A stretch of DNA of 64,000 nt from Styela clava (lineage: Eukaryota > Chordata > Ascidiacea > Stolidobranchia > Styelidae): positions 9,167,001 through 9,231,000 of the forward strand of contig NC_135258.1 in assembly GCF_964204865.1 (NCBI RefSeq). The letters run 5' to 3'. The notes beneath the pieces were generated by a model. That model made no database searches. It was given only the letters and a program-made list of their open reading frames with translations, and was not told the origin of the DNA. Both the position numbers and the translations under genes were made by a program. This document shows positions 19,669 to 63,383 of this stretch, one piece after another (within the stretch, counting starts at the first letter, position 1; each line of letters opens with the position of its first letter).

Positions 19669-20055
19669 CCGTATTTCCCCGAAAATAAGACTGGGTCTTA
19701 TTTCAATTTTCTTTCGAAAAAATAACACTAGGGCTTATTTTGGGGGGATGTCTTTTATTTTCAATTATCAAAAACAAAATCACAAAGTAGAGAATTTTGA
19801 TATTTTCAAATATATATATACGAAATATGTGAAACGATATCCATTTACTTATAAAAAAAAACACGTTTTTCTCACACTTTTAGGTTTATCATTTGAACCT
19901 GTAGGAGAGATTTCTTGCTATCGACTATAGGTGAAAAATAAATTTCGCGCTATTGACTAGGTCTTATTTTAAGGGGAGGGCTTATATTAAAATAATTTTT
20001 AAAATTCAGGCTATTTCTTATTTTCAGATTAGGTCTTATTTTTGGGAAAACACGG
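19669..20055. mobile_element. MITE with terminal inverted repeats (ccgtatttccccgaaaa type)
   Basis: The left end 'ccgtatttccccgaaaataa' and the right end 'cttatttttgggaaaacacg' are inverted repeats of about 22 bases with few mismatches. Inside, 'gggcttattttgggg' and 'ggtcttattttaagggg' repeat the theme. The 'cccgaaaataagac' ending resembles a MITE type common in animal genomes; the exact family is not claimed. Confidence 0.65.
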
Positions 20056-20089
20056 TAAAATAGTGATGATTGAAAACATGATATGGAAA

Positions 20090-20395
20090 ATCGTACTATC
20101 TAATGCAGCTCTGATTATCCTGCGTGAATTCGCAGGTTCGAATCCCCCGAGGGGTAAATTATGTGCGAGAGGATTGGCGACATCCTTGCTGCCGTAAGAT
20201 TGTTCACGAACCATAACCGCTGGTCGGTTACGCCGTCCTCCACCCTCATGCCCATGCATATGAAAATAAAATAAATTGCCAAATAATCTCATACCCGACG
20301 TCGACTCGTAACCGGACCAGAGGCCGTGGTTCACCATATGGACAAGCCGCATTATCGGCTTTTCTTTCCTTCTAGGATAAATTTGTGAATTCTAT
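20090..20395 (+). mobile_element. tRNA-derived SINE, family A
   Basis: Box B 'ggttcgaatcc' lies near 20135, followed by 'gtgcgagaggattgg', 'accgctggtcggttacg', 'cgtaaccggaccagaggcc' and the 'gataaatttgtgaattcta' end. The head before box B is more diverged than in the 22440 copy. Confidence 0.8.
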
Positions 20396-20760
20396 CCTTA
20401 GTCATTATGCATATCGGGTCATACACTTCTATACGAAACAAAATTATCTCCGAACGTTGCTATAGCATATTCAGATTTGTAGCGTATTGTGTTGCGTAAT
20501 AAGTAGTATTAAGTAGAACAGAGTTGTATTGAGTATTAAATAATAAAATATTGAATTAAACCACATTTTAAAAAATAGAATGGAATGTATTGATCGAAAT
20601 CGAACAACGAACGGCTCAGCCTACAGATCCGCGAATTTCGCGATAGTGATGTCATTCCCGCATTTGGGAAATCCCCATCTCCGAGGGTACGGAATTTTTT
20701 TTGTCTCTGAGTTTTGGATTTACAGACGTCGTTGCAGCGTTGGCGCTTTGTAGAACTAAA

Positions 20761-23700
20761 ATGGCTTTTTCACAGCGTTCCAGACATCGTGATTCTGGAG
20801 ACATCAAGCAACTGTCAAATATAGAGAAGCAAATATTGGCATTTCTTCATGAGTAAGTAGCCACAATTTTTATTTTATAGGTTTGACGTAATTTGCATAG
20901 ATTCAAGATAAAATATAGTAGGTCTACGACTCTACAACGTTTAGGTCTTGGCGTCTGGAATTATGTAGTCACGTCACAAGAAGTACTATAATTTTCTGAT
21001 AAAAAAAATTCTGTCTATGGTACATTTATTTTGTTGTTGCAGTATTGCAATGTATTAGATTTGATTATACAGTTATAGATAGGACTTTCTGCAGTTCTGG
21101 ATTCAGAAAAAGTATTCAAAAACTTAAAACTCTTTCCAGCTATGGAGACCCTGTAAGATCCCCACACACAGACACTCATATCCACGTCTAATGTCAGAAT
21201 GTCTGTGGCAGTTCTCAATATCCTGATATCAGGTTAAAATTATAAGTAGAAGATTTCATGTATAATCTTCACTTGCAGTGATTTTATAAAACAAATGTTT
21301 TCTTTCTCAATTTTATATTTATTTCAATTGATTTTGTGTATTTTTTAGTTTTCATTGCCATTTTTTGTAATGTTATCTTTAAATTGGTGCAAATAAACAA
21401 AGATTCTATTCAACCTAGTCATATCTTAAAAACCAATTATGACACAACAAAGCATTATGAAATTTCCCTTTTTAAAATGTATGCAAACAAACACCATTAT
21501 TTGTTATAATTAGCTAAAAGATAAGTTCAGCCTTTACAACTCCAAGCTAAAGTTAGGAAAGAATAAAGCTTATACTGTGGAAAAAATGTCAGTCATAGAT
21601 GAAACAGAGGAATCTCCCTCGTGGCTTGATGAGTCTACAGAATTACCATCTGTGAATACTAGTGATTCATATGGAAGTTCTGGGAAGCGATTTGGAGCAG
21701 CTGTTGCCAAAAATAAGTTATCACGTTTAAATAAAAACATTTCAAAAACGATGAGAAGACGACATAGTTCAGATGAGAGCAGTGTTACAAATTTAAATTC
21801 CTATAATTCTCAAAGCGGGATGGAAATGCAGAATACTAATTATGTAACACGAAGATTTTTAGAACGAGATAATTCAACCTCGAGAGAAGAAATTCCGCAA
21901 TGTGTTGGAACAAAGAATTTACCAGTGAATAGCAATACAAGTGAATCTTTATCAAGTGCAGACAGCAATACACAGCACGATTATAGTTTAGGTTCGGCGG
22001 CGTTGTCGTCAGCCAAATCAATTGGAAGATATGTCGCAAAATCCATTGCAAGGGAAAGTTCTTTGCCACCAAAGAAACGTGGAAAATTCCATTGCCTCCA
22101 TTCAACTCAAAAAAACGATCAAAATGACGAAAATAAGAATGATGCTGCAATGGAGAAGCAAATAAAATTTCAAAGCAATCGTATTGCAAATTTAGAAAAT
22201 ACTCTGGAACTTGTTTACAAAAAAATGAAGTTACATGAAGATAATATTGATGAATTACAAGAGAAATTATATTTGGTCGAATTTGGAACGCCAGGAACTT
22301 TTCTTGCTAGCTGTAGATTTTATATAGCTCTGTTCAAGTGTACTGCAATTCCTATCATTATAGTGGAGGTGATTTACCGCGTAATATTTGCTGCATTTCA
22401 ATAAATAAAATAAAAAAAAGTCAGTTTCTTCACTAGCAGTATCTTGGCTCGGCGGTATGGCACATCGTGTTGAGCGTTAAGAATACGCTTGTCACCTCTG
22501 ATTACCCTGCATGGGTTCGTAGGTTCGAATCCCATGCGGGGAACGTTATGTGCAAGAGGATTGCTGGACTTCTCGCTGCTGCAGGGTGGTTCACCTAACC
22601 GCTGGTCGGTTACGTCTTCCATCTCCATCAAGTTTATGCTTCCGAAAACAAATAACTGGCTAACTAATCCCATACCCGACATTGACTGGTAACCGGACGG
22701 AAGGCCGTGGTTCGATATATGATTAAGTCGTCTTATCGGTTTTCCTCTACCCGGGGTAAATATGTAAATCCTATCCTATCAGAAATTTTGAGTGTTGGGT
22801 TAAGCCTGAACTGAATTTGTTTCTGAAATCAGATAGAAAGAAGGATCTTGTAAAATTGAAATAGTTTTGGGCATTATTTTCTTATACAACGTATTTATAT
22901 GCTTTTTGCCTCAAACAAGGCTAAGCACAAGCTAGGTAAACTGCTAGGTAAGGACCTTCTATAGCAGTGGTTCCTAAACCGCGGCCCCTCTTTCCAGTCC
23001 GTGAGAATTTTGCTTATTATTTTGGCCCCTGGTTAATTAACTTAGGAACCATTGTTCTTTAGTTTGGAATTACTGGAATGTTTTGGGTTGACAATCAAAA
23101 TTTGTTGTGTTTTGATAATATATTTTTCTTAAATTTCAAGGAGTTTCATGTAAAAGACTTCTTTTAAATGTTCCAGCAACTATCAATCTGAGAACACTCA
23201 GCACGAGACACTGAAGATCGCTCAAGCACTAGGGAAGAAAACGAAGCATGAAATCAATAGGGACTTATATAGGTATGATATGGAACTTTTCATTCAGAAA
23301 GTAGATTTATAAGTATTACAATATCTCATGTAGCCTATATTCGAATATTTATTCTCAAATATATTTGTCCTGTATTACATCATTTTCTTGTATAGCACTC
23401 TATACTTCCTCCAAGTTAGGTCCTAATTTGATATGTAAATTTTCCATTAAACGATTCATAATTTAAAAATAACAGATATTTCCAATCTTTACTTCAGATT
23501 GCCCCAGGGTTTAATGATTATTAACTTTTTTTCTAACAGTAACGGGTATTAAAGGCATTTCTATATATAATTGAGCTATGGCAATGCGTATTTGTCTCAT
23601 CACTCCGAGGCAGATAATTACGATTCCTTAACTTTCTTGGATAAAATGTCCCGTAAAATTCAGTAAACTCCACTTTTATTTGTATTTTATAGCCTCAAAA

Positions 23701-26700
23701 AAAAAGGATATGTTGAAAAAGTTGTGGAGAGTCCACCTACTTGGAAATTAATTAAATATGAGCCAAACTTTGCAAACTCTCATAATAGTTTTCATGAATC
23801 ATTGAATCCTTCTTCATCAAATCAGCCAAGTAGAAGTACTGTCTTCCCTCCATCTACATTCAATGCTGGTGATTCTTCATCATCTGCTAAAAGACATACA
23901 GATTATTCTCCCTTTGTTCCTGATAATTTTTCAAATCCGAAAAGGCCTAGAGGTTAGTTTTTGTTATGATATCTACTGTACAAAAACATTTATTGATCAT
24001 ATTTTCAAATGCTGTATCAAGTTGTGTAAAGGGACTGAAACCTATGGGCAATGGGTATATTCACTTGGCTAACACAGATAGTCCTCGAACTCGTAATAGA
24101 ACTAAAATATTCTCAGTTCAACCGGAAAGCTTAAGGAAAATCGGAATAAAATTATGGCCTAACCCTAACCTGGTACATACCGGTATACTACGGGAATACC
24201 TCACATGTTTTTCACTCTGTACAAGGCTCTGCTCCACTGCTATGAGCTATCTTATTTTGAAAAACTGAAATCTTTCTGTTTCGGCGATGTCTACTCAGCT
24301 TATTAAATCACGGGTGATGGGATGGGGATTTGAACCCAAGATTTTTAAACTTTTGATGCCAACATAACTATTATTTCAACCACTAAGCCACTTGAATTCA
24401 TTATTATGTAGAAAATGTATTATCGTGTAAAACACTACTTAATGCAGATTTATTTTCACACTGAATTATATTATACTAGTTGATGACATTATTGAACTAT
24501 GATAGTTTTTTTCTTTTTTGTGTTTTATCGAACTTTGAGTAGGGATTGCAATATTTGGATAGGGTAAGATTTTTATGTTATTCCAAGAAATATGAAAGAT
24601 GACAGGTCGTTTAGAAAATAGGGGCTCAAAATCAGGCTCAACAACGGTATTTTTTTTCGTTATGCATAGCAAAAGTAAAGTCTAAATACTGCTTGATCAT
24701 ATATGGAAACTGTAGTCTCTAATGCGCTTACTATTCAAATTTGGGTATGAAATTAACACAGAAATCGATAATTTCTGATCCATGGTTATGTCTTTAATAA
24801 TACCGAAACTTACGATTGGTTCTTTTACCAGACTACGCATTGGAATCTAGAGTTCCAGTATCACACAATACACAATCATTTTATGACAATTTTGTAATAC
24901 CGCCACCCCCGGATGTTCTGTTGAAGGATGTTGAATCATGCTTTCATAACTTGTCTGTAGAAGGTGATTATTTTTTCACTAAAGCCTCCACGTAAATTTT
25001 ATATCATGCAGCATAATTCTTCCTTCTAATCTACTTTGCTATATCACTGTTTTCTTTACTGTTCTGCTCCAGAAAATCATTGATTTTTTGTAAGAATCAC
25101 AGCATTAACATTTATCACAGTTTGTGAATTGCTTTAATTGAAATTTCGCTTTTACATCTTCTTTTGTACATAATGTTATTTGACTTTTTTCCCACCATCA
25201 AGCATATCATAAACAATTAATGAAAATTGCTCTATGATTGTACCTTTGATGGTATATTTCATCTTATCTATCGTTACATTTTGGTTACTTATATTCATTT
25301 ACAAGTACTGCTTTGTTGATTAAACTAACATGCTAAAACAATTTTTTATGTGACAATTTCTTAGGTTTTGTTTTGCAATCTTTCATAGTCGCTCATACAA
25401 TGTAATATGAATGTCTTGAAATTCTGTTCAAAGCAGGTTTAATCAAATATCAGCAAAAATTCAATTTTGGTAACATTAGCAATTACACCTTCTTCTGACA
25501 ATCTTTTTATATTCAGATAATGCTTCAAAAAATGATGAAATTGAAGAAAATATAATGGAAATTATTACCAACACAAACAAAATTACCATAGATGACATTA
25601 TACAAAAAATACCTAATCAAAATACAAACTTAATACAACAGGTGAAAAAAAATTCATACTTTTGCTATTATTCTATCCTTTCTAATAACACTCTTATACA
25701 TAAAGCAAATCTAAAATTAATTAATCTTTTTAAAGGCATTATCAAATCTTATGAGGAAAAACAATATTAAAAAAGTAGGTGAATTTTACTCACTTCCACA
25801 AACAACTACCCAAGAATCACAAACAACTGTTCCAAAATTAACGCACGACGATGAACTCGTCCAAAATATTGGAAAATCATTTATTTCAGACGATTTTACT
25901 TCCGATATCGCATGTGAGTTTTCGCTTCGTTTAAATATTTGTAGTGGGAAAGGATTTTCATATTTAACTTGGGAGGTATGAAGGCCAATGAGACGGACGA
26001 CTCGAGCATGTGGTAAACCATGGCCTTTTGTTCTGGCCAATCCATGTCGAATTTGAAAATATTAAGTCAGATTTTCGTTTCATTTGAGTGGAATGAATAA
26101 CATGGGAAGCTGTTATCAACCAGCAGACTACCTTACGATGCTGATGATTCTAGCAATCGCATCCTATTCAATTATTCACCAAAGGATTTAATCCTGTGTG
26201 TATGGTAAAAAATGTGAGAGGGCACGCTTTCGATGCTTGACACAATGTACTAGCTGCCAAGCCGTCATATTTTAATCATACTCTGTTTAATTTATCATAG
26301 TTTAATAATGTCATCAACTTTTGTGTGTTCATATAAGTATGTAGTGAGACTGTATTAATTAATTTAAGCTTATTTAGTCTTTGTTTTTCAAGTATTTGAG
26401 CATTGCTGTCTTGTTTATCAAGTTGTATTAGAATTCAAAAATATATTTTAATATTCCAGTGGATGAAGCATCATTTCCCTCTTCTTCTTTCGTGTCTGCT
26501 CCTCCTGTTCCATTATTTCTTCCTGTTTCTGCACCTGTGCCGATATTGAACATCCCAGAAGGAAAAAATGCGATATCTTTGTTGAATGAATTTGCTCAAA
26601 AAAATAGTCAAATTCTTGAATACACCGAGGCAATGAGTGGACCAGACCATAAACGAAGGTAATATAATTAGTTCAGTATAATTAATTGATCATGGGGAAG

Positions 26701-29700
26701 TTGATGAGCATGTTCAGTCATTAGAATCTTGTGGAAGATTCTAACATAATGCTACCAGATGACGTGACAAATTCTTGTGAATTACTTCACAAATACCTAA
26801 CATAATGCTACCAGATGACGTGACAAATTCTTGTGAATTACTTCACAAATACGGTACCTAATTCTACCTATGATAGCATTCTAATAATCTCTGGCACGTT
26901 GGCTCCGATTTTTCCTCGTTTATTTTTAGACTTTTTTCCTATCACTATACCTAAAAACTTCCTTTCTGTTTGTCATTGAGTTTTGAATGAATGATTTTAG
27001 TTAGTGATTTGCGCAATTAGAACTCCGACTTTTGTTCAGTTTTAATACTTTATGATATGTTTATAGTTTTCATTTTATAAATACTAATTGGGTAAAGAAT
27101 ATGGTTAAATTTAGGATGAATTGAAAATTTTGACATCTGACTTTTGGGGAGTTTAAAAATCACTCCAAATATAATGGACCTTTCCCCGACCTTTGACCCC
27201 CGAAAAATTCTTTGTATACTTTACCATTGCAAAATTTTCGGGGCTATTTTAAGAGTGCTTTTGCGAGTTGACGCCTGTAAAATGGTGTATGTGTTTCAAA
27301 CCATCATTTTGATTCATCGCATACAACAATCTGTTTTTTAAAAGTACCGGTAAAGAATTTCAGCCTAGTCTATCACAGCTATTTCTACAATAATTTTTAT
27401 TACTGCAATTAAATTAAAACTCCCAGGAAGACAGAGTGATCATTGAATTGTCTGATTTACATTTAAGTATTTGAAACACAACTGAAAACTAACGAAAAGA
27501 GTTCAAAAACGAGGTAATGTTCACGAACACGCTTGAAAATCGTCACCTCTTGCATGTTGCTGATTGGCCAATGTCTCGAAGTAAACAAGGAAGTCGATCC
27601 TCGGGGAAAAGTCCATATCAGTAAAAATGTCAAACTTCGACTGAGACCTCACAGCTTTTCCCCTGACTTCCACACATGATTAAGGATGATTGGCTTGCTT
27701 GTGTCTACTGCCCATCATGTGTCATATCAATTATATCAAAAAGTTTTATTCTTTAGTTTATTTCTCTGCCACAGATTTAGAATGGCTGTCAAGCTTGGAA
27801 ATCAAAATTTTTTTGGACCTGAAGCGCCAACCAAGAAAGAGGCAAAATTAAAAGCAGCCGAGGTTGCACTTGCAGCTTTGCATAGTTCTGTTATGAATGA
27901 GAATGGATCTACTCCAGGGAACCCTGTGAGTAATGTTTTTGAATCAGGGCTATCTAGTACCATACAGTTTTTTACCAATTTTTAATGCCGATTTTTTTCA
28001 GCGAACATTGGTTATATGGAATTTGATACTAGCTGTTTTTCTGTTTGTGGTGGCATGAACTGAATTTGAGTATTATGCCGATAGGTTTTTTCTAACGCTC
28101 AATTTTACGCTATAATTCTTTACAGTCTCAGGAGCTCTCGGCACTCGATTATACGTAACTTTGCTCAGAGATCCATCTTCTTTATTTCTGAGTGAGCAGA
28201 TGTGCATGAGTGAGAAAACATCCATAAGAAAATGTAAGAAAAATATCAACATAAAATAACTCTTATTATTTTAGTCTTCACTTGTTGAAGCAACTTTCAA
28301 TGACAAAGTTGCAGCATTGGTACTACAGAAATATAACGAATTGTCACAAGTTTTGCCTGATACTATTGTGGGGAAGAAAATTATTGCTGGATTCGTTATG
28401 ACGAGGAAATTAAAGTCTGGTGAAACTGCAATGCAAGTCGTCAGTATTGGATCAGGTAAACACTTTCATGCAGCGAAGGGTGTGGTTTTGGACTATTGAG
28501 TATATAAATATGATATATTATAAAGCGTGTTTATCCATCTTTTGCTTAAAACTAGGTATCTAATGATATGTAAAGAAAGAATGAAAACTGGCTATTCAGT
28601 TATGATCGATTAGATATGTGTCATAGTTTAATTTTAATAAAGTCAAATTATATTTTTAATACATTTTAAGATGTATGGTATTAGGCTTAGAAATGCATCA
28701 GGAGTTAAAAAGCTTGGAAGCCCTGATTAAACCTTTCCTTTCTCTTAGGTAATCGTTGTGTGAAAGGTGACAAACTAAGTCTCCGTGGAGAGACTGTGAA
28801 TGATTGTCATGCTGAAGTTATAGCTAGGAGAGGGCTTGTCCGATATTTATATCGAGAATTGATTAATTGTGATGAAGATTTCAAGTTTGTTTTGAAAGAT
28901 GATAAGTAAGTATAACTTTAGACTGTATAATGAAATTTATTGGAATCAAAAGAAATTTTTTTTATTGTTAAATGGGCTGAAATATAAATATGTGGTATCT
29001 GCTTTTATCATACTGTTAATGTGTTTGGATTATGCAAACTATAGTCAATCATAGCGTAAGATTATTCTCTAACTAGTAGAGCCATTGACTTAAATTGAGT
29101 TGAAGTACTCTGTCATCTAAGAGGGATAATTCGAACTTGACTAACCATGATAGTGACTTCGGAGAATAAATTGGGCTAGCCATTAAAATAGTGAACAATA
29201 ACAGGGAAATTTGATCTACCATGTCTGTTAATATTGTATTTGAAATTAGATTTTAAGTCACTAGTTAGATGCAGCAATAACTCAAAAAAGGCTGTGTTGA
29301 TGTCATGAAAAATGTTGTCAATGCATGATTGAGTCCTACTTTAATTTTCAAAAATACATTCTGTTCAAGGCGACTTTCATTTTACAGTATCTTTGTGCCT
29401 CATTTTCATTCATTTCTCCTTTTCATTTTTGTGACTCAAAACATAAGTGACTCTACTTGATTTATGACTCGGATGTAATGAATTGACTTGTTTTGGGACT
29501 CAAACTCTAAAATTTACTGAGACTGTACAGTCTGTACTCGAAAGTCAGATGACCACCATTACTGATTAGTTGTCCATAATCCCATGCTGTTTTGTTTTTC
29601 ACTTCTTTTTTTCCTTATGTTTCAGATATGATTTAAATCCTGGTATTGAATTCCATCTGTTTATAAATACTGCACCATGTGGCGACAGTGCTATTTTTGC

Positions 29701-32700
29701 ACCGAGTGATGCGGCCACTGATCAACCAGGTCAAGATGGAAGTGATGGATTACATCATCCAGTGTTTGAGAATAATAAACAGGGCCTCTTGAGAACAAAA
29801 GTTGAAAATGGTAAATTTTACAAGAAAGATTGTTTTATGAATTTTTTCATTATTATTTCGGAACTTTTTTGACTAAGAACACACCTGCTACGCTTGTCTT
29901 TATGTACTTATTTACTTTTATGTCAATTATGTATTCAAGCAGCTTCATATTTCAGACACAGTTAACTCACTTGAGTGAATACACTTAAGTGTATAAGTTT
30001 AATTGAAATAAAATACTTGTTGATGAATTATCAATATTAACTGTTGCTATTCCTATTTAACAAGATGCAATTCAAAAATCTATATATAGGTCACCTTAAT
30101 GGTGTTTAAGTTGCTATGAAAATCTTTTTAGTTCAACTATCACCAATAATTGTCTGAAATCCTGACTCAAAATTTCACCTTTGACTTCATTGCTTCAAAA
30201 ATACGACCCTTAACTCTATTATCAATAGGTTATGCCAAACTCTGAACTACACAGCAATACTCGAGTCTAAGTTAACTTTTGAAATATCTATCTTATGTTG
30301 CTTTATCTAACGGAGCAAATGGCAATGTTTTAATTCACACAGGTGAAGGTTGCATTCCCATTGAAAGAGATACATCAGTGCCAACATGGGATGGAATACT
30401 ACGAGGTGAAAGGTTAAGAACAATGTCATGCAGCGATAAAATTGCAAAGTGGAATTTTCTGGGGTTACAGGTACACAAAAAATTTGAATTGACACAATAT
30501 TTTCTATATCTATAAAAGTCTTTTTTAGGAAAAAATCTTTGCATGATTAAAACTACAATTTAGCATGAAAGAATTGCTTTTTTCAATTTGGTGTTAGGCA
30601 ATACTTGTATACATAAAGTGAACCAGAACTTAGCAATAGATGAAGATTCCAAATAAGAAATTGGATGCATTCAGGATCCTGAAATAGTTATGTAAACTTT
30701 GCGAAATAAAAATAGGGGCTGAAGGTCAATTTGTCACCTTATAGTTAAGATACTCTCATTTTCTTCATCTGCCAGATAAAATAATTTTTAAGTACTACTC
30801 TGTTTTCAGTAAGCTCTTTAATTTTATAGGGGTCGCTGTTGAGTCACTTTTTGAATCCAATTTATATGTCGACACTCACGCTGGGTATGTTGTACAACCA
30901 TGGACATTTAACGAGAGCAATATGTTGCCGAGTACAAAAGTTTATGGAACAACTTGAACCTGACCTTTCACCCCCTATTCCATTCACTGTTCATCATCCT
31001 AAGGTTTGTACAAAATTTACAGTGCTTTTTATAGGACACTTGTTTATAGCTTTTGCTCTGAACAAGGCCCTGTACAGTAGTCATTCACTGATATCCCACA
31101 GAAACATAAAGAGCTATCTTACAATTTATCTCATCCCGAGTGAGAGATTTGACCCTGTAATAAGGGACCTTCGATGCCAATGCAGTTAAGTCTATTAGTT
31201 TAACCACCAGGCCATTGTGCAATTTTAAACACGATTACACTGAATTATCCTTTTATTTATGGTATACATTATCAACAGGGTGAAATCACATGTCCACTGG
31301 TTGGCTACGGTTTCCTCCACCAATCAATTCCATGCCCATAAGATGAATCAGTGGTCTGCTTTTTCAATACCTGAGATGCACTGGTAGGGTCATGGCTAAC
31401 ATTATGATTAAGCTATATCCTCAGCTTTTTACTCTAAGGCAGGGGTTCTCAACTTTTTTTCTGTTAAACATCCCCCGAATTACGAAATAATCAACGCGAA
31501 CCCCCGATAATCAGACACCAAACAAAGTTGTGATATATTGACTGACAATTTACTGCAATGACAATTCATTGGCCAACTTTGTAATTAAATTAAATATTCA
31601 TGTTGATGTTATTGCTCTTGTCCTCCTCCCAACTAATGAATTCTTGAAATCTCTCTCAAGTTTCAATGAGCATTTTCTGCAATGCTTGCAGCACATTGTC
31701 TTTTGAGATTTTACAGTTTGGCTGAAAAGCCGTGCATTTCACATTGTTGCGTCACAATCACAACAACGCTAGATCAGTGAAAATTTACTCTGAGTTTCAA
31801 TTTGCTTTCATTTTCATCTGGTAGTTACTTAGTTTTCTTTTGTTAAAGGATATTGAAAAAAAAAAAAAAAATCGACTGCCATCCAAGTACCCCTGAAAAT
31901 CTTCCCGTGAACCCCTGGGGGTTTGCGAACCCCAGGTTGAGAACCCCTGCTCTAAGGGATAAAAACTTTCCTGCGAAGGGGTTCCACCTGTTTCCATTCA
32001 AGTCTAATCTTGTGGGGAATAATTATGCGCAAAGGATTGCTGGATTCTTCACCGCCATAAGGTGATTCATGTAACCTCTGGTTGATTATGACCTCACCCA
32101 CCACCAAGTTCATGCATCTGGAACGATTACCTATTATCATACCGGACATGGACTGATAGGCAGAGGAGAGGCCGAGTTTTGTGATATGTTTGAGCCATCT
32201 TTTAGCTTTTCTCTTCCTGGCATGAATATGAAGATATAACCAAATTATCAGCACTGAATCGAAGGGCTGGCACACAATATTTGCAGTGCTGTCTGTGTAA
32301 AGTAATAAAAAATTGCGTTAGCGAAAAATACAAATAAGTATATTTCACCAGGTTAGTGGTCAGAATCCAGACAGAGAAATAGCAAAAATGAAGACGAGAG
32401 AATTCAGTGTGAACTGGAGTTTGGGTGATGAAAGACCAGAAGTATTAGATGGTACAACAGGAAAAAGTGAACCACGGTTTGGTTCTGTGGGAATATCGAG
32501 AATTTGTAAGGCAGGACTATTTCAAGAATTCCAAAAGGTGAGATGATTTACTAATTGAGATTGTTTTGCCAAATCAAGTGAATAAATAGGCACCTCCTCT
32601 ATGATTGTTTTATAGCCCATTGTGTTCTCATATTAATCTAGATTTAGGATTACTAAAACTATCTCATAGCTAGAGAAGCAACACAACACAAGTTCATCCA

Positions 32701-33362
32701 GAGCTTGGAGCCCTGGTGTTTTGTTGCAGCTCGAGTTAAAGCCAAACATATCATAAGGGATAGCGCTGGAGCCTAAGCTAGAAAAAAATTGTCGACTTCA
32801 GCTCATAATCATCCAATTATTTTCATTTTGATTGCACACCGGCAACCCACCCTGAATAATTGAAATTGAATATTTCGGGGAATAGATTTTATTATTAACT
32901 CCATAATACATAGAATGAAATGAAGCAATTTGAATTAATTGCATTGATATTAGAGTCTCTAATACCATTGCCCCTAAGACATGCATAAAAGTCTTAAGAG
33001 AGTGAAGAGACCAATCGTCGTTTTACTATTTATTTTTTAAATTTCTTCTGTGATAATGGTAGAGATCCGTTCGTCACTATATTACAGTCAGTTTGATATC
33101 TCGTGTAAATATTGATTTTTCGTTCGAGTGATAAAATAATAAAACTTGACTAATATAAGTCTGTTAGATGAAATTATGTGATGAATATTATTGTCAGCTT
33201 TGCACAAAATTTGACCAACAAGATATGTTTAAAGATGGATATTACAAGAGCAAGATGGGGGCTGCTGAATATCAGAGTGCTAAGCAAACTCTTTGGTATG
33301 CATTTGAGAAAAACGGTTTCGGAAAATGGATGCCAAAACCCAAGGAAGAAAAAGATTTTTAA
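20761..33362 (+). CDS. ADAR: ADAR1-like double-stranded RNA adenosine deaminase
   Basis: Fifteen exons join in frame to 812 residues: 20761-20852, 23177-23272, 23693-23952, 24832-24963, 25517-25641, 25736-25913, 26460-26658, 27775-27925, 28275-28455, 28749-28905, 29626-29810, 30343-30470, 30830-31003, 32352-32537, 33168-33362. The enzyme converts adenosine to inosine in dsRNA. Residues about 19-84 form a Z-alpha winged helix with N58, Y62, P77-P78 and W80, spaced exactly as the Z-DNA contacts of human ADAR1. A second winged helix (about 201-256) looks degenerate. One dsRBD follows (about 330-397, KKEAK at 381-385). The deaminase has H492-A-E494, C542 in APCGDS and C615 in SCSDK as zinc and proton-shuttle residues. 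The end ([15 protein letters not shown]) is ADAR-like. The start has an 'aaaATGG' context. Vertebrate ADAR1 has three dsRBDs, so this one is reduced. Confidence 0.95.
21586..22404 (+). CDS. Unrecognised coiled-coil, probably tail-anchored protein nested in ADAR intron 1
   Basis: A single uninterrupted frame of 272 residues lies wholly within ADAR intron 1 on the same strand. The first ATG is at 21586 ('aaaaaATGT'); an in-frame GTG lies 9 bases earlier. Residues about 1-180 are Ser/Asn/Glu-rich and look disordered, with a basic patch PPKKRGK. A stretch of about 40 residues ([19 protein letters not shown] onward) has heptad-like spacing of a coiled coil. The last 28 residues form one hydrophobic helix ([20 protein letters not shown]) ending at the C-terminus, the layout of a tail-anchored membrane protein. 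AATAAA words overlap and follow the stop, then an A-rich run. It has no introns, so it may be a retrocopy or a native single-exon gene. I do not recognise the family. Length and composition make chance unlikely. Confidence 0.7.
   Translation: MSVIDETEESPSWLDESTELPSVNTSDSYGSSGKRFGAAVAKNKLSRLNKNISKTMRRRHSSDESSVTNLNSYNSQSGMEMQNTNYVTRRFLERDNSTSREEIPQCVGTKNLPVNSNTSESLSSADSNTQHDYSLGSAALSSAKSIGRYVAKSIARESSLPPKKRGKFHCLHSTQKNDQNDENKNDAAMEKQIKFQSNRIANLENTLELVYKKMKLHEDNIDELQEKLYLVEFGTPGTFLASCRFYIALFKCTAIPIIIVEVIYRVIFAAFQ
22440..22775 (+). mobile_element. tRNA-derived SINE, family A (best copy)
   Basis: The copy runs from 'ggctcggcggtatggcacat' (box A region) through 'aggttcgaatcccatgcggg' (box B), 'gtgcaagaggattgctgg', 'ccgctggtcggttacgtc' and 'ggtaaccggacggaaggcc' to 'gggtaaatatgtaaatccta'. 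It begins about 35 bases after the stop of the nested gene. Confidence 0.85.
22965..23054. mobile_element. 90-bp hAT-type MITE
   Basis: TIRs are 'cagtggttcctaaaccg' and 'cttaggaaccattg'. Flanks 'ttctatag' (22957-22964) and 'ttctttag' (23055-23062) form an 8-bp target duplication with one mismatch. The CAGTGGTTC start and 8-bp duplication are typical of hAT. Confidence 0.75.
24013..24195 (+). repeat. Dispersed repeat family C, copy 2
   Basis: 'caagttgtgtaaagggactg', 'attcacttggctaacac', 'cgaactcgtaatagaact' and 'cctaaccctaacctggtac' match the copies at 1-140 and 34986-35130. It lies in an ADAR intron. Confidence 0.75.
24205..24405 (-). mobile_element. tRNA-derived SINE, family B, copy 1
   Basis: On the minus strand the head reads 'gtggcttagtggttgaaat' (box A) and 'gggttcaaatcccc' (box B, a perfect GGTTCAAATCC). 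It is followed by a body containing 'aagatagctcat' and 'gagccttgtacagag'. A second copy with the same body is at 31015-31232. Confidence 0.75.
25517..25804 (+). other. Second winged-helix (degenerate Z-like) module in ADAR, split by a 94-bp intron
   Basis: Exons 25517-25641 and 25736-25913 encode [20 protein letters not shown] then [19 protein letters not shown] and GEFYSLP (about residues 201-256). The helix, helix, L-x-x-L, beta-wing pattern parallels the Z-alpha copy. However, the positions of N58 and Y62 are Q234 and S238, and there is no PPxW. It sits where vertebrate ADAR1 has Z-beta. Assignment is from pattern only. Confidence 0.6.
26741..26852. repeat. Perfect 56-bp tandem duplication in an ADAR intron
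   Basis: A 56-base unit beginning 'ctaacataatgctaccagat' is present twice, head to tail (26741-26796 and 26797-26852), with no differences seen. Confidence 0.95.
31015..31232 (-). mobile_element. tRNA-derived SINE, family B, copy 2
   Basis: On the minus strand the head 'atggcctggtggttaaact' (box A) and 'cagggtcaaatctctc' (weak box B) precede 'gtaagatagctct' and 'gtacagggccttgttcagag'. That body is shared with the 24205-24405 copy. It lies directly after ADAR exon 13. Confidence 0.65.
31270..31985 (+). mobile_element. SINE-A fragment interrupted by a hAT element
   Basis: 'ccactggttggctacgg' and 'gatgcactggtagggtc' through 'gattaagctatatcctcagc' match the SINE-A body and tail. After the 510-bp insertion the tail resumes with 'gataaaaactttcc'. 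The tRNA-like head is missing. Confidence 0.6.
31440..31949. mobile_element. 510-bp non-autonomous hAT element
   Basis: TIRs are 'caggggttctcaac' and 'gttgagaacccctg'. An exact 8-bp duplication 'ctctaagg' flanks it (31432-31439 and 31950-31957). The interior has no transposase frame. It is inserted in an older SINE-A tail within the ADAR intron between exons 13 and 14. Confidence 0.9.
31990..32245 (+). repeat. Headless SINE-A copy
   Basis: 'aattatgcgcaaaggattg', 'ccgccataaggtgattca', 'catggactgatagg' and 'gatatgtttgagccatct' follow the SINE-A body and tail in order. Confidence 0.65.
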
Positions 33363-33477
33363 ACTTTTTACTGTATTTTTGGACTATTTTACTGAAAATG
33401 CTATTTATTCACAATCATAGTTGTACATTTCTTTCAATTTATAGCATGCTTTTATTGCTACATAAATTATTCTTATA

Positions 33478-33483
33478 AATAAA
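33478..33483 (+). terminator. Candidate ADAR polyadenylation signal
   Basis: AATAAA stands about 115 bases after the ADAR stop, the first match to the consensus hexamer downstream of it. Another follows near 33610. Confidence 0.5.
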
Positions 33484-33794
33484 AAATAGAGAATTTCCTT
33501 AAACACTTCTAAGGCTACTTTTCAGCTTATTTTGTATCAATTTCAAATTTAATATCAGATTATGTGTCAATGTGTGTGAAGCTTATTTGAAATTCTGTCA
33601 TTATGACGCAATAAATATCTAGTCGCAATGAGAGACGCGACGAGTCACTTGGCAAAGTCACAGCGAGGCTAAAGTAAACATTCTTGTTTGAGGTTTTAAA
33701 GCGTGGCTGGAAGAAAGGCGAGGTTATTCCGAGGGCGAATGATGAAATGCTGATGTTTGCTATCTAAGTTGGTATTAATTTATAAATGTAAGTT

Positions 33795-35287: not shown

Positions 35288-38200
35288 TTAACGTCTTGCA
35301 CGTCTTCCTCGCCCATGTCTTCTTCCCATAGGACGTTCATGCAGCATTGGCAACCCGGAGGCATCAGGGTATCCATGTAGCCCCTCTTCAACATACCCTA
35401 CTCCTGGTGCCCAGTGTCGGGCTCCATGGTGACCGAAACTGGGCCCGTCACTAGCAAGCTTTGTTATGTCATCTCCACGTTCTTTCCAGGCTTTGGCGAA
35501 ATTTCCAGATATGTGATACAGCTCCATTATGTTGAGAAGAACCATGATACATCCAGTAGCAAAAAACAGGCAGATGAATACGGTTTTCTCTTTCGGCCTG
35601 AAACAAATTTGGACACGAAAGCATAAACGATCTGGGTCAGTTGACAATAAAGCAGTTAATGCGTAACTGTGTTGCCGTGGCATATTGGATCTCGGGTTTA
35701 CATCCCACCCTACCATATGCGTTATACATTGGGTAGGCAATACCAAATTGGAAAGATTCCGTAGCTTTCAAATGATTCTAGCTCCTTGCGTATCGTTATA
35801 TATATCAGTGATGGCTTGTACAGGGCCTTGTCCGGAGAGAAAAGCGTGAATGAACGTGTTCGGAGAGAAAAACGTGAATATTTGTCTACGAGATAAAGTA
35901 CAAACTAGAATTTGTTATCGATTTGGAGCATTAACTCTCGCATTTTTCTTACCGTGATACAAAGCAATCGACAACGTTTGGGCAGGGCCAATGTTGACAT
36001 TGGAATAATTCCGGCATCATAAATTTGAACGTGTAAATATGATATTGTCCAACCATGAAACCAATTTCGATCAGAAGCCTGGAAAGCACCTATAAAAACA
36101 GAATAAAATTCAAACTTGGAATCAAATGATTGATAAAAAAGTAAAAACTGATTATGAAATCATGAGAGCAAACAAAACCTTAGATAAAGTTCAAAATGTA
36201 CAGAATATAAGATAGGAGGTTTTGCCAAGAACAAGTGGTGCGTGTTCACGCACCTAAAATTATTTCACACACGCACCTTCACACGCACACACACAATCAC
36301 AGAGAAATTTAAAGTGGATTATGGCACGATTTTACCCAAAAGTATTTTACCGTAAAGAGTAGCTGTAAACGTCAAGAGATACATATTAGCGACCTAAGCT
36401 CAATAAGGAAAGCACAGAATCTTTTGGCCACTCTGTGGGGATTGTAAATCAGTTAGTCAATCGTTACAGACTCGGAAATTAGAGGAAGACGTAGCTAGGT
36501 ATTGATCACTTGGGCCACCCTGCTAGCTGCGACCACAGAGTAATGTCTTTTTGCCATGTTTCAAAATATTGATATTTCATATATATATATATAGCAATTA
36601 GCGACACTTTTTTACAGAAAAAAAAGCGCCGTAATATGCCTCCTGGTAAACTGAGTTTATCGTTGTTAACTTACAACAAAGAAATAAGCCAAGAATAATT
36701 TGGAAGGGGCATCTTCCGATAACTTCGTCGCAACCATTTTTTCATCCTTCCCTTTATCGTCTTTTTCGTCATCAGAATTGTCTTTCAGAAGTTCTAAAAG
36801 TAAAAGCTGATAAATTGCACAGTTCAGATTTTGGAGAAATCAGTAATTTATTTTTCCACCAATACTGAAAATACGCAACTTACATATACGATTAGAATAA
36901 AATAAGTATATATAGCATTTACGGGGTGGATTGAGACGCTGAAAACCAGTACTGGTTATCGAGCAGCGACACCAATTGAGTTGAATTAATATCGTATAAA
37001 TGAGAAAAAATCCACCTTCTATCCGCTTAGGATTTAATCCAGCCTCAATCATCTCCTGTTTCTCTTTTTTCTTTTTTTCTTCGCGAATCTTTTTTCTCTG
37101 AATATATGAATGAATTGAAAGTTTCCGCCAATAATATTAATATTTCTACTGATTCGATATTCAACGGTTTATAGCTCACTTCAAAATCCGGGTTTTCACG
37201 TACTGTTTTTCCAATATTACTCGATTTTATGCATCCTTTATGCTATCGTTTGATAACATTTATTATTCAAGTTTGGCACAAATAATTCGGCATTTTTATA
37301 TACTGCATATATGTATGTATTATAACATTTTGTTGAACATGGAGTTGCTCAGAAGTTTTTTATTAAAAAAAATAAAAATAAAGTAGCATCGAAATTCTCA
37401 ATAATACTAACCACTTCTTTCTCTTTTTTTTCTCTGGCTTTCCTAGCATTCACAACTATCGTCACTTTTGCCATTTTGTGAGCAGTGTAGACAATAAATA
37501 TGATCGACGGTAAAGCGACACAAAGTATTTGCAGGAACCAGTATCTAGTCTGAAATAAATTTGTAAAATGACCCATTATTTGTGAACCAATTAATAGCCA
37601 GCGATAATCGAGGGCAAAAACGTTGAAAGAATATTTATAATTAAACAAAGGCCTATTTGTTTCAACTATTTCCACCTTTATAAGCACATATTCAGGTGAT
37701 AAATGAATTTGATAATATTTTCATGTTTTAATAAGACATAGAAACAGATGTCATTTAGAATCTAATAGATGGATGGGGCAATACAACAAAATAATATTTT
37801 CAAATGTATTTGTCTCGAATATTGCAATTAAGTAAAGTTACAAAATTTACAATAATTATTAAAACATAAATGACAAGAATAACTTGAATATACGCTTTAT
37901 CAAAGTTATGTTCTGTGTTCCCATTTCTATGCTCTTATGTTTGCTACCTTGTTTCATTCATTTCTATAGAATCTAAAAACGTCTACACTCACCAAGGCGA
38001 TGGGACTATATTCATTGAAGCAAACGTTCTTACAACCAGGAGAGAGCGTGTTACAAACAAATTTTCCTTGAGCGCTCCCCCATACATTTCCTAAAAATTG
38101 AAACAGGTTTCTTGTATTTCACTTTTACATCGACTATAGTTACTAAAACGAATGACGCTCCTGCAGTATGTGCACCAATATGGCGCACAATCTGAACCCT

Positions 38201-44694: not shown

Positions 44695-45480
44695 ATGGAT
44701 GCATCGATGAAACCAGCGAGACTTGACTTGAATCTGAATTATCCAAGCGCGGCAAAGGAATGGAAGCACTGGCGAAAAACATTTGAGAACTACATTGAAG
44801 AATTATAGATCAGTGTACAAGAGGGCCAGTCTGTGAATAAACTCAAGAGGCTAATCAACTCAGTGTCTCACAATGTTTAAGGAAATATTGAAGATGTGGG
44901 CGCTTATAGTAAAGCTATGGAAGTGCTACATAGCTTATATGTCAAGACGCCGAATGAAATATTTGCACGGCATTTGCTAGTTACGGCAAAGCAACAACCT
45001 GGTCAATCCATCGACGAATTTCTACAAACTCTGCTAATCTGAGTAAAGACTGTAATTTTAAAGATGTTTCTGCCGCGCAGTACCGCGACGAACTTATACG
45101 TGATTCTTTCATCAATGGTATTTTGTCAGATAACATCCGACAACGTCTTTCGGAGAACAAGGACTTGACCCTTGCATTAGCGTTTTCACAAGCTACATCC
45201 CTTGATCTGGCGCAACGTAATTCGTCAGCCTATGAAGCATCTCGGATCGACGAATTGCAGCCTTCGGCATTGGCCACTTCCAAAACCTTTTTCGACAATT
45301 AAGGTATAGTAACTGGCCGTATAACGAACGAAAATGCATATTCTGTGGATATAATTACCACAATCGTCTAAATTGTCCCGCTCGCAATGCCAATTGCTAC
45401 AAATGCGACAAAAAAGGCCACTTTGCCAATATTTGCCGATCAAAGATGAATAAATCTGGAGACTCTTCATTTATAACGGC
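44695..45480 (+). pseudogene. Gypsy gag remnant with two CCHC zinc knuckles
   Basis: The frame starts at an ATG 24 bases after the LTR. It is broken by an in-frame TAG at 44806-44808 and a TAA at 44878-44880, and later changes frame. Between 45335 and 45436 two C-x2-C-x4-H-x4-C knuckles follow each other (CIFCGYNYH and CYKCDKKGH). Knuckles in gag bind the element's RNA. Confidence 0.85.
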
Positions 45481-45584
45481 GTCAGTAAATCCATCAGTCC
45501 ACGACATGCAATCGGCACCAAGGTGTTTACTGCCGCCTGCCGGCAACACTTCCAGTTGTCATAGCTGGTCGCAACATCACTGCG

Positions 45585-45848
45585 TTGATAGATACCGGAA
45601 GCTCTCTCTCTTTTATAAACGAAAAGACTGCGAGAATGCTACGTTTGAAAATTTTGCCTTCACGGGAAAATGTAGTGATGGCTGTCCAGCATCTGCAAGG
45701 AACGACTATTGGATCCTGTTTAACTGATATGATAATTGGTACTCGTTCATATACCAAAGTGCCGCTTAAAGTATTTCGAGGTCTTTGTTGTGATTTATTG
45801 CTTGGTCAGGACTTTCAAAGACAACATAAGAGTAATTTTCTCTTTTGA
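45585..45848 (+). pseudogene. Gypsy retropepsin (aspartic protease) segment
   Basis: IDTGSSLSFIN holds the catalytic D-T-G, and LLLGQDF is the usual second hallmark. It is open for 87 codons and closed before the reverse transcriptase, so the polyprotein frame is broken. Confidence 0.85.
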
Positions 45849-46099
45849 CAGCTCTCGTCCTGGACTTCCAGATCAATATGAATCAAAAGTATGTGGTTTA
45901 GCTGCTGCAAACTACACACCGGCTTCGTTATTTTCTAATCTCATGAAAAAATAATCATCTGATAGCTGTCAAATCTCGCCGTTTTGGCGCGTTAGACAAA
46001 GAATTCATCGCTAAAGAAGTTTCGAGAATGTAGCACGAGGGAATTATCAGGCCAAGTTCTTCGCCGTGGAGAGCACAGCCTTTAGTTTTGAAGGGCCCA

Positions 46100-46531
46100 T
46101 TGACTTCAAAACGACGATTGTGCATAGATTATTCTTAAACGATAAATATTTATTCAGAGCTAGACGCCTATCCATTGCCGCGAATTGATGATATGGTTAA
46201 CGAACTTGCCGGATATTCCTGGTTTTCCACCTACGATCTGAAATCCGCGTATCATCAGATTCCAATATGCCAGCAAGATAAAATTTTCACTGCATTTGAA
46301 GGCGATGGTAAACTCTGGGAATTCAATCGTATTCCATTTGGAGTGACCAATGGAGTACCAGCCTTTCAGCGGCTAATGGATGAAATTGTGGGAAAAGGCA
46401 ATCTGAAAGATACATTTCCATACCTCGACAATGTAATTATAGCTGGACATACGAGAGAGGAGCATGACTATAACGCGAAGAAATTTCTCGATACTGTTAA
46501 GAAAAACAATTTAACATTAAATGATGCATAA
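46100..46531 (+). pseudogene. Gypsy reverse transcriptase segment with mutated active site
   Basis: DAYPLPRIDD, FSTYDLKSAYHQIPI and FGVTNGVPAFQRLMD are reverse-transcriptase motifs. The catalytic box reads YLDN where the family has YxDD, so the second aspartate is lost. The frame ends at a TAA after LTLNDA. Confidence 0.88.
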
Positions 46532-46879
46532 ACAGTATCGAATGTACGAAAAATTAACATTTTAGGATATACAGTGGGTAATACTTCAGTATAAGCTCCA
46601 GATCCCGAACGCCTAGCTCCATCAAGAGATCTCTACCTCCAACAAATAGTCGAGCTCTGCAAAGAATAATTGGACTTTTTGCGTATTATTCGAAATAAAT
46701 TGTAAATTTTTCAGATAAAATGCAACGACTCCGCCAAGTGAAAACATTTCCTTTGGATTGCGCTACAGTACAAGACTTTGAATCTCTCAGAAGAGAAATC
46801 GGAAATGCCACTTTGAGCTCAATTGATGAGCATGTTCCATTTGATGTAGAATGAGCCACACCGAATCAAGGAGGGCGAC

Positions 46880-47166
46880 CAGTGGCATTTTGGTCGCGTG
46901 TTCTACAGAAGAGTGAGAGGTTTTATCCCGCTGTAGAAAAAGAGGCAACGGCAATCATTGAAGCCGTGCGAAAGTGGGCCCATTTTCTGGCAAGACGTCC
47001 GTTCACTATCGTGACCGACCAACGATCGGTTTCTTTCATGCTAGATAACCGTCGTCGATCAAAAATGAAGAATAATAAAATTCAGTCCTGGAGGCTGGAA
47101 CAAGCCTCATTTAGTTACGACGTTATATATCGACCTGGAAAACAAAATGCCGCATCTGATGCTCAC
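46880..47166 (+). pseudogene. Gypsy RNase H segment
   Basis: AFWSRVLQKSERFYPAVEKE and FTIVTDQRSVSFML are typical of the Ty3/Gypsy RNase H that follows reverse transcriptase. It is separated from the RT frame by stops. Confidence 0.85.
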
Positions 47167-47745
47167 GTCTACATGCGTATCAATTTTTCCCACGTCATTG
47201 CAAGAAATACACGAAGGTTTATGTCACCCGGCCGTCACAAGACTTCTACATTTCGTCAAATCGAAAAATTTGCCTGTCTCGACTGATGAAGTAAAAAGAA
47301 CTTGTAAATTATGCCGCGTATGTGCGGAGCTTAAACCGAAATTTTATTCCCCACCGTATGGCACATTAATCAAGGCCACCACACGGTCACGGAAAGACTG
47401 GGTATGGACTTCAAGGGACCTTTGCCATCGCGGACAAAGAATGTATACATGATAACCATTGCCGATGAATATTCTAGATTCCCATTTGTATTTCCATGCA
47501 CCAATCTTTCTTCCGCTTCAGTAATAAGCTGCCTTGAAAAATAATTTGCTCTGTTACTCCCTAATGCGTCACCGCTAAATGATGGATGCGACGTCTACCG
47601 AAATGAAGAGTTCAAAATTAAAATTTCAATTAGCTCTGACAATGCTAATAATGAAAGGATTGCCCCACGTCGTTCAACTCGAACTAACATTGGTGTTCAA
47701 CAGAACGCTATGGTTTTTAAATATAGACGGGAAGAATGTTATGAG
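47147..47745 (+). pseudogene. Gypsy integrase: zinc domain and C-terminal scrap, catalytic core deleted
   Basis: An H-x4-H (HEGLCH) followed by C-x2-C (CKLC) is the integrase HHCC domain. The core begins with MDFKGPLPSR, which carries the first catalytic Asp, and stops after ISCLEK. The next recognisable part is the C-terminal IAPRRSTRTNIG near 47670. The second Asp and the Glu of the DDE triad are missing. Confidence 0.75.
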
Positions 47746-48038
47746 AATTAAGTTAAGTCATTCCTGTTGCAGTGTGCTACACTTAGTTTATATTTCGTCA
47801 TTATTACATTATCGTTCTTTGTGTTGTGATCACTGATTATCGTCAAGCGACAACGGACTGCATTTGCCTTACTGCATTAGTTACGTGCCGTTACGAGTAT
47901 TAGACGGTAGTCCGATTAAGTTTGGTTATACTTAGTGACTCAATGTAATTATGTTGCATGTTCTTGTGTTTAGGTTAAGATGCGTTTTTAGTTTCTTAAA
48001 GCCATAATTTGGTGTATAATAAATAAACTGTCATAACA
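47737..48038 (+). repeat. 3' LTR of the Gypsy element
   Basis: The LTR is 302 bases, TG...CA, and collinear with the 5' LTR with about 15 substitutions, several of them clustered in its last 80 bases. Confidence 0.93.
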
Positions 48039-61933: not shown

Positions 61934-63149
61934 TAGAATTCAGTTCGTTCATAAAAGTATTCAAGTTGGACGAAGTAAACTGGCGGTAAAGCGTTCCAAT
62001 TCTGTTCTGAATTTGCTTTTCTAGAAGAGAGCATTGTACAATTGGCAGATGATCAGAAACACATTCTGCTAAAACAGCACTATTAACTTTTTTATCATAT
62101 ACGTTTGTCCAAATGTGGTCTATACAGGTAGCAGAACTTGAAGTTATCCTGGTGGGGCAGTTTATCAGAGAATAATAGGCCAGGTTGTGCATAATATCAA
62201 CAAATAGGCTGGTATTCATATTGGACTCATCGATAAGATTATAGTTGAAGTCACCCATTATATAATTATAATTCAACTTGTTCATCTTTGAGAGAACTTG
62301 GGACAAGAGATTCCGAAAGTTAGCATTGTTCAATTCATCAGTTAGTGGTGATCTATAAATAGTACCGCAGGTTATTGTTTTATTTTCCAATAATATGTCA
62401 ATAAATATAGATTCGAAAACCTTTTCACACATTATAGTAATATCCTTGCGGACAATGTATTTCAAATCATTTCGAATGTAGAGACCAACACCACCACCTC
62501 GGTGATGAAATCTACTGTTGGTGATAAAAACATAGCCATCCAATGTATTGAAATGGCCATTTGTACCAGATACAATCCATGTTTCATTTACAGCAATTAC
62601 ATGAGGCTTACAATTCAGTGAATTCACTAGTGCTTCAAATTTTGTGTAGTTTTTGAAAGAGGCTAAAGATCTGATATTGAGTGAAAGAGTCATGAAACCA
62701 CTTAGTTTAAAACTATCATTGAATTTGAGATCATTGACATCACTAGAGCAAATATACTGATTTGAGCTGTTGTACATGAAAACACTGTTTATGTTGTTGA
62801 ATTCATCATTGTCAGTATTGGCTGACTCAAGAAACATTTGGTTTAGGTATTCAGGATCAAGAATTTTAGTAAGTGCCTGGGCTTCAGCTTTTTCTGAATG
62901 AAGAGAAGTACATGATTCTAATAATTCAGAATCAGAGAGAGAAGAGAATGGTATGCAATCTTTTTCACAAAAGAAACAGCACCAAGGCATATCATCAGCT
63001 TCAGATTGCAGGTTTTCATACTGCTGGTTAGAGATATTGGTGCATTTTAAATGTATCCAATGTGAGCAAATGTTGCAAAAAATAGCTTTCTGATTAGTTC
63101 GGACTGATTTGTGGCAATTTCTACAGGGATATTTTAAATTATGTTTCAT
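61797..63149 (-). CDS. LINE ORF2, PHD finger plus APE-type endonuclease part
   Basis: The first 60 residues hold a PHD-like C4HC3 zinc finger (CRNC, FCNICSHWIHLKC, WCCFFC). Then comes an apurinic-endonuclease fold: LSLNIRSL, AVNETW, GGGVGLYIRND, MGDFNYN and CVSDHLPIVQC carry the catalytic Asn, Glu, Asp and Ser-Asp-His positions. The endonuclease nicks target DNA. The frame ends about 15 codons after it diverges from the reverse-transcriptase frame, at a run of seven A on the coding strand (61829-61835). A one-base slip therefore separates two halves of one ORF2. The first ATG is at 63149, 234 bases after the ORF1 stop. Confidence 0.9.
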   Translation of the reverse strand: MKHNLKYPCRNCHKSVRTNQKAIFCNICSHWIHLKCTNISNQQYENLQSEADDMPWCCFFCEKDCIPFSSLSDSELLESCTSLHSEKAEAQALTKILDPEYLNQMFLESANTDNDEFNNINSVFMYNSSNQYICSSDVNDLKFNDSFKLSGFMTLSLNIRSLASFKNYTKFEALVNSLNCKPHVIAVNETWIVSGTNGHFNTLDGYVFITNSRFHHRGGGVGLYIRNDLKYIVRKDITIMCEKVFESIFIDILLENKTITCGTIYRSPLTDELNNANFRNLLSQVLSKMNKLNYNYIMGDFNYNLIDESNMNTSLFVDIMHNLAYYSLINCPTRITSSSATCIDHIWTNVYDKKVNSAVLAECVSDHLPIVQCSLLEKQIQNRIGTLYRQFTSSNLNTFMNELNSIDIDDFSSIQDPNTCFEKFFEKFSTAYSQSFPYKKTNKQIKQTLV

Positions 63150-63383
63150 GGTGGTGGCAAAGTAATGAAATAAAAAAATAAAAAAAGTATAGTGAAGTAA
63201 GACAAAATCTAAAATACAAAGCTTGAATACAAAGTTTCCAGGTGCAGAACTTATGGTTAAATAAGTACTAGCCTAATTAGCATAAGGAAAATAAGGGTGA
63301 AAATAAATTAAGTTAAATTATATTATCAACCCTGTGCTAAAGGCCACCACTATACCAATGAGACCAAGTTGCAAACAGTGTGC

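Follow-up and report, generated by a model that had tools for sequence, protein, structure and literature searches.

A close comparison for the segment discussed below is Z-beta of human ADAR1 (PDB entry 1xmk), which lies between Z-alpha and the dsRNA-binding domains. Z-beta has lost chiefly the tyrosine of the Z contacts, together with a change of arginine to alanine. It retains the asparagine and the PPxW motif, and the Pfam z-alpha profile recognizes it at 1e-27. It has been described as binding G-quadruplexes, with helices 1 and 3 as the main contact and R328 and K326 as implicated residues (PMC13136903, PMC11942513), and a fourth helix serves dimer contact (PMC10523160). According to the authors of the 2026 G-quadruplex measurement, no binding partner of Z-beta had been known before it (PMC13136903).

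Among the invertebrates, an ADAR of Lingula carries three Z-alpha domains (PMC11293857) and ADAR1-like proteins have been defined by the presence of any number of Z-alpha domains (PMC4323055). Squid ADAR1 is described as having one Z-alpha, one dsRNA-binding domain and an ADAR1-type deaminase, as in the protein considered here; unlike it, the squid protein has a long serine-rich stretch and, in that description, no Z-beta (PMC10278661). A search of open-access literature gave, among the matches listed, no tunicate ADAR described as having a second Z-like domain. No open-access paper was found that treats Ciona intestinalis, ADAR1 and Z-DNA binding together, and the available portion of an amphioxus ADAR paper gives no domain layout (PMC7761149). 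Since invertebrate ADARs with multiple Z-alpha domains have been published, a second Z-like domain in an invertebrate would extend a pattern already on record; the novelty would lie in a segment that has none of the Z contacts and sits at the place of Z-beta.

The ADAR gene and its product

We analysed a window of 64,000 nucleotides of Styela clava DNA (contig NC_135258.1, positions 9,167,001 to 9,231,000), and positions are given relative to its first letter. Exon joining yields a complete ADAR gene on the plus strand at 20761-33362, with 15 exons and 802 codons without an internal stop. All 14 introns are of the GT-AG type. The parts of the gene are as follows.

20761..20852, plus strand: exon 1, start codon and Z-alpha helix 1, ending in phase 2
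23177..23272, plus strand: exon 2, Z-alpha helices 2-3 with N58, R59 and Y62
23693..23952, plus strand: exon 3, Z-alpha wing with P77, P78 and W80, followed by linker
24832..24963, plus strand: exon 4, linker, 132 nt, symmetric phase 1-1
25517..25641, plus strand: exon 5, putative helix 1, strand 1, helix 2 and start of helix 3 of the second segment (to Q235)
25642..25735, plus strand: intron between exons 5 and 6, 94 bases, phase 0, interrupting the putative recognition helix
25736..25913, plus strand: exon 6, remainder of putative helix 3 and short wing (A236-P256), followed by linker
26460..26658, plus strand: exon 7, linker and first part of the dsRNA-binding domain
27775..27925, plus strand: exon 8, remainder of the dsRNA-binding domain (whole domain, residues 332-396)
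28275..33362, plus strand: exons 9-15 with their introns, end of linker and deaminase, residues 468-796 (CHAE, PCG and SCSDK)
33360-33362, plus strand: stop codon

Pfam places a z-alpha match at residues 21-83 (E 5.6e-9), a single dsRNA-binding motif at residues 332-396 (dsrm, E 3.7e-13) and an adenosine-deaminase domain at residues 468-796 (A_deamin, E 1.8e-94). The first Z domain retains N58, R59, Y62, P77, P78 and W80. The deaminase is 53% identical to that of human ADAR1 and 45% to that of ADAR2, and its zinc and catalytic motifs NDCHAE, PCGD and SCSDK are intact. Marker residues that separate ADAR1 from ADAR2 were taken from Table 2 of PMC6651903. In an alignment read by eye, ADAR1-type residues occupy four ADAR2 positions, 375-376 (N-R), 449 (A) and 455 (A). 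At ADAR2 position 459 (headed 495 in that table) the protein has P, compared with lysine in human ADAR1; the table gives P for human ADAR2 and for abalone ADAR1 as well (PMC6651903). An ADAR1-type deaminase, together with a Z-alpha and a dsRNA-binding domain, places the protein in the ADAR1 class, and its sequence looks like that of an active editor. Four scans of viral and prokaryotic contig collections, where animal genes are expected as stray sequence only, gave 3, 47, 19 and 15 pattern matches, none of which was confirmed as a relative.

Residues 194-295 are the product of exons 5 and 6. An initial annotation of the locus had described a canonical Z-alpha followed, at the position of Z-beta, by a second segment spread over two exons and lacking the Z-DNA contacts. 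The exon model and the alignment reproduce this arrangement, together with the exon coordinates, the 94-base intron at 25642-25735, the residues Q234, S238 and F252-Y253 and the contrast between phase 2 in Z-alpha and phase 0 in the second copy. The two exons span 303 nt and are entered and left in phase 1, so that skipping them leaves the reading frame intact; the second domain may therefore be absent from some or all of the mRNAs. Exon 4 is another phase 1-1 unit that could be skipped in frame.

The segment encoded by exons 5 and 6

The segment that can be aligned with Z domains comprises residues 201-256. The Z contacts are replaced throughout: N by Q234, R by Q235, Y by S238 and W by Y253, with the PP pair deleted. 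The wing is three residues shorter than that of the Z-alpha family, and identity to the protein's own Z-alpha is 23%. Z-alpha is interrupted by introns in phases 2 and 2, the second segment by one in phase 0. The intron in helix 3 of Z-alpha splits the codon of S63 and that of the second segment sits between Q235 and A236, about 11 nt away in the alignment. The segment has a charge of about -2.2 (pI 4.8) and human Z-beta one of -1.1 (pI 5.6). All three Z-alpha domains in the comparison are basic (+3.7 to +4.6), that of the same protein having +4.0 and a pI of 9.4.

Judged from sequence, the pattern of residues 201-256 resembles that of a winged helix and is non-random. The 57-residue segment matches nine Pfam families at E ≤ 0.1, none of them over its curated cutoff:

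Penicillinase_R, 0.0011
PCI, 0.0065
HTH_9, 0.028
Stork_head, 0.029
EnY2, 0.044
HTH_Tnp_Tc3_2, 0.054
DUF5697, 0.054
CheR_N, 0.06
MCM4_WHD, 0.079

Names or descriptions mark four of the nine as helix-turn-helix or winged-helix families, and such a unit is also part of Penicillinase_R and PCI. The E value for Penicillinase_R depends on the length of the query, being 0.0011 for 57 residues, 0.0023 for 86 and 0.044 for the whole protein. Forty residue shuffles gave 14 matches combined at E ≤ 0.1, the best at 0.0077, and a family named as helix-turn-helix was among them in no case. The sequences of solved structures matched at E ≤ 10 are a designed knot protein (0.0044), of which no stretch passes on its own, Sul7s (PDB entry 7bzh; 0.016) and a second designed chimera (0.39), leaving Sul7s as the best natural match. 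Sul7s is a winged-helix protein that binds ssDNA and has a Z-DNA-binding domain among its structural neighbours (PMC8998557). It is similar in length and the match covers nearly the whole segment. It differs in being archaeal and in its positive binding face, the R52 of which aligns with E251, and no descent is implied.

The amphipathicity of the three putative helices, the limits of which were set by hand on the real sequence, was reached by none of 5,000 shuffles, and by none of 3,000 when the limits could slide by 3. In an alignment of 14 hydrophobic core columns from four Z domains, which was built with the second segment included, 13 of the columns are hydrophobic in the segment, a number that none of 5,000 shuffles reaches; the segment shares this order of core residues with the Z-alpha family. 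The one exception is S238, at the position of the Z-DNA tyrosine. The retention of a core from which the contacts have vanished argues against plain decay. Overall, the helix-strand-helix-helix-wing pattern and the family matches surpass the shuffles, with no family over its curated cutoff, and we infer a winged-helix fold. By eye no helix-like stretch adjoins the wing after P256, where helix 4 is a feature of Z-beta.

The exons themselves were compared with chance. A 300-nt in-frame cassette of exons 5 and 6 is stop-free in 6 of 20,000 dinucleotide shuffles. The splice sites were picked beforehand from the reading frame; scored in this way, each of the two donors is matched by one in 493 intronic GT sites, and the acceptors of exons 5 and 6 are equalled by 4 and 17%, respectively, of 478 intronic AG sites. 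Weak sites occur elsewhere in the gene (intron 1 donor, 1.3; intron 14 acceptor, -7.05). The G+C content at codon positions 1, 2 and 3 is 38, 27 and 21 of 100 (position 1 against 3, p 0.013), a fall that is also seen in the rest of the gene. Codon usage does not separate exons 5 and 6 from introns: their score, -0.039 or 0.013 bits per codon with one or the other training set, ranks at 0.54 or 0.60 among 711 stop-free intron windows, and several secure ADAR exons lie nearly mid-range as well. Trained on ADAR alone, the test ranks exon 5 last among the 15 exons. For exon 5 and for exon 6 alike, the claimed frame has the best codon usage of the three. Residues N, I, K and T, toward which AT-rich sequence tends, abound in the region.

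Kinship, origin and role

The initial annotation had called the segment a degenerate Z-like copy comparable to Z-beta and had proposed a search with the z-alpha family profile. The placement between Z-alpha and the dsRNA-binding domain and the loss of contacts stand; the kinship to Z-beta or the Z family was not borne out in the same way, and the profile results pull in both directions. The Pfam z-alpha profile (PF02295) was passed by human Z-alpha, by human Z-beta (1.1e-27), by ZBP1 and by the protein's own first domain; for the second segment no match is listed at E ≤ 10, in a search where the HMMER filters hide most matches above about 0.1. The segment neither reaches the curated cutoff of the family nor carries N, Y and PPxW. 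The comparison with Z-beta stands as far as the tyrosine, which is gone from both. Z-beta kept N and PPxW, and the second copy has lost these together with R and Y, so to call it degenerate in the manner of Z-beta understates the difference.

In our reading, descent from a copy of a Z domain appears to be the likeliest origin. An independent duplication of Z-alpha within the animal's own lineage, with the contacts lost afterwards, is a possibility that we entertain tentatively. Several Z-alpha domains in one invertebrate ADAR have a precedent in the three of Lingula (PMC11293857). A profile of vertebrate rows only gives the segment 7.5 bits against 1.2-6.3 for five unrelated winged helices. 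With the protein's own Z-alpha included, in a profile of six rows, the score rises to 12.8 bits, above the same five (3.7-5.9) and above 2,000 shuffles, and the score of a global alignment with its own Z-alpha is reached by 1 of 1,000 shuffles. Against such a duplication, a profile of its own Z-alpha alone gives 4.4 bits, a score that 39 of 2,000 shuffles attain and that LexA surpasses with 8.3; BLASTP between the two finds nothing at E ≤ 100, identity is low and the introns differ in number, place and phase. That the segment is an unrelated winged helix from outside the Z family, gained as a phase 1-1 exon cassette, is rather doubtful. The unlisted z-alpha match would fit, as would the nature of the nearest matches, which are generic winged-helix families and, from archaea, Sul7s. 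The symmetry of exons 5 and 6 fits as well, but exon 4 next door is symmetric too, which makes this weak evidence. A landing exactly at the position of Z-beta would be a coincidence, the six-row profile favours the segment over unrelated winged helices and no donor gene was identified. A true orthologue of vertebrate Z-beta, derived from one Z-alpha/Z-beta duplication before the tunicate and vertebrate lines diverged and changing fast in the former, seems to us unlikely. The two share their placement, the absence of the tyrosine and an acidic character that sets them apart from the basic Z-alpha domains, and their alignment score is reached by 0 of 1,000 shuffles globally and by 11 of 1,000 locally. 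In contrast, a profile of human Z-beta alone gives 0.3 bits, which 489 of 2,000 shuffles equal, and BLASTP is blank at E ≤ 100. The N and PPxW that Z-beta retains are missing, the alignment has N229 and N231 opposite its K326 and R328, two basic residues with an implied part in G-quadruplex contact (PMC13136903, PMC11942513), and helix 4 is not seen by eye directly after the wing. LexA aligns about as well as Z-beta, its global score being reached by 1 of 1,000 shuffles (11 for Lrp and 157 for BirA). Specific sequence kinship to Z-beta was not found.

Two further readings concern what the segment does. It might bind another form of nucleic acid, G-quadruplexes or single strands, and so steer editing, which we regard as decidedly unlikely. 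Human Z-beta binds G-quadruplexes despite its lost Z binding (PMC13136903), and Sul7s binds ssDNA (PMC8998557). The segment is net acidic, although human Z-beta is mildly so as well, and asparagines at the positions of K326 and R328 leave a G-quadruplex role unsupported. Of the arginines that Sul7s needs for ssDNA, R49 corresponds to K248 but R52 to E251; this charge reversal at a key arginine is the reason for rating binding in the manner of Sul7s low. That exons 5 and 6 are a chance open stretch or a linker without a folded domain is very improbable. It would agree with the lack of a Pfam match over cutoff, the low-complexity composition in N, I, K and T and the intron-like codon score. It is opposed by the rarity of stop-free shuffles, the strong donors, the three amphipathic helices at winged-helix spacing and the helix-turn-helix family matches that are missing from shuffles.

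We consider it probable, with some reserve, that this ADAR1-class editor carries, after Z-alpha and ahead of the dsRNA-binding domain, an accessory winged helix that does not bind Z forms, and that docking or spacing is its most likely function. Exons 5 and 6, once included in the mRNA, would supply this domain, and protein contact or self-association through it would help to position the editor. Z recognition would be left to Z-alpha. With N, R, Y, PP and W gone and a negative net charge, the second domain should not bind Z-DNA or Z-RNA, and Z binding by it appears unlikely. Docking, spacing or self-association is what we infer to remain as its role.

A winged helix at the place of Z-beta, with neither the Z contacts nor the two basic residues, would be a natural comparison for Z-beta itself, and whatever ground the two have in common cannot be Z-DNA recognition. 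It is unlikely that a layout of Z-alpha plus pseudo-Z predates the split between vertebrates and tunicates, with the second domain freed from Z binding in both lines. If it did, the job of Z-beta would be independent of contacts of the Z-DNA type and of the residues linked to G-quadruplexes. The age of Z-beta would become testable from the ADAR1 genes of a few tunicates and amphioxus.

Elsewhere in the window

A repeat search of positions 20600-33600 for matches of at least 40 bases gave no second copy of exons 5 and 6; the sole match is a perfect 56-nt tandem duplication in intron 7 of ADAR (26741-26852). A tRNA scan gave no tRNA-derived repeat. On the minus strand, similar peptide fragments recur by eye at 20032-20391, 22401-22775 and 31955-32317, which suggests a repeat dispersed through the ADAR gene and its surroundings; the same DNA search, at 40 bases, left them unpaired. 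A stop-to-stop frame of 91 codons on the minus strand (25786-26061) overlaps part of exon 6.

Intron 1 of ADAR holds an open frame of 296 codons on the plus strand (21514-22401). An ATG lies at 21586, the encoded C terminus includes a hydrophobic stretch and AATAAA stands where the frame ends. No Pfam family matches it at E ≤ 0.01. Read by eye, the sequence offers a nearby AG at which exon 1 could be spliced to it in frame, so that the frame may belong to a nested gene or serve as an alternative last exon.

Outside the ADAR gene, an open frame on the plus strand at 14034-14279 matches the lipocalin/fatty-acid-binding protein family (E 5.3e-6). Two open frames on the minus strand (35291-35767 and 37352-37720) match Pfam Connexin, one over the cutoff (E 5.2e-8) and one just under it (E 1.2e-6); connexins are not known outside tunicates and vertebrates, which points to a tunicate as the likely source. 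Remains of retroelements, in more than one frame, lie at about 44958-47833 on the plus strand, with a reverse transcriptase match at 46139-46528 (E 1.9e-17). On the minus strand, 59864-63272 contains two long overlapping frames of 692 and 491 codons that are LINE-like by eye; the latter matches the endonuclease/exonuclease/phosphatase domain and, just under the cutoff, a PHD finger.
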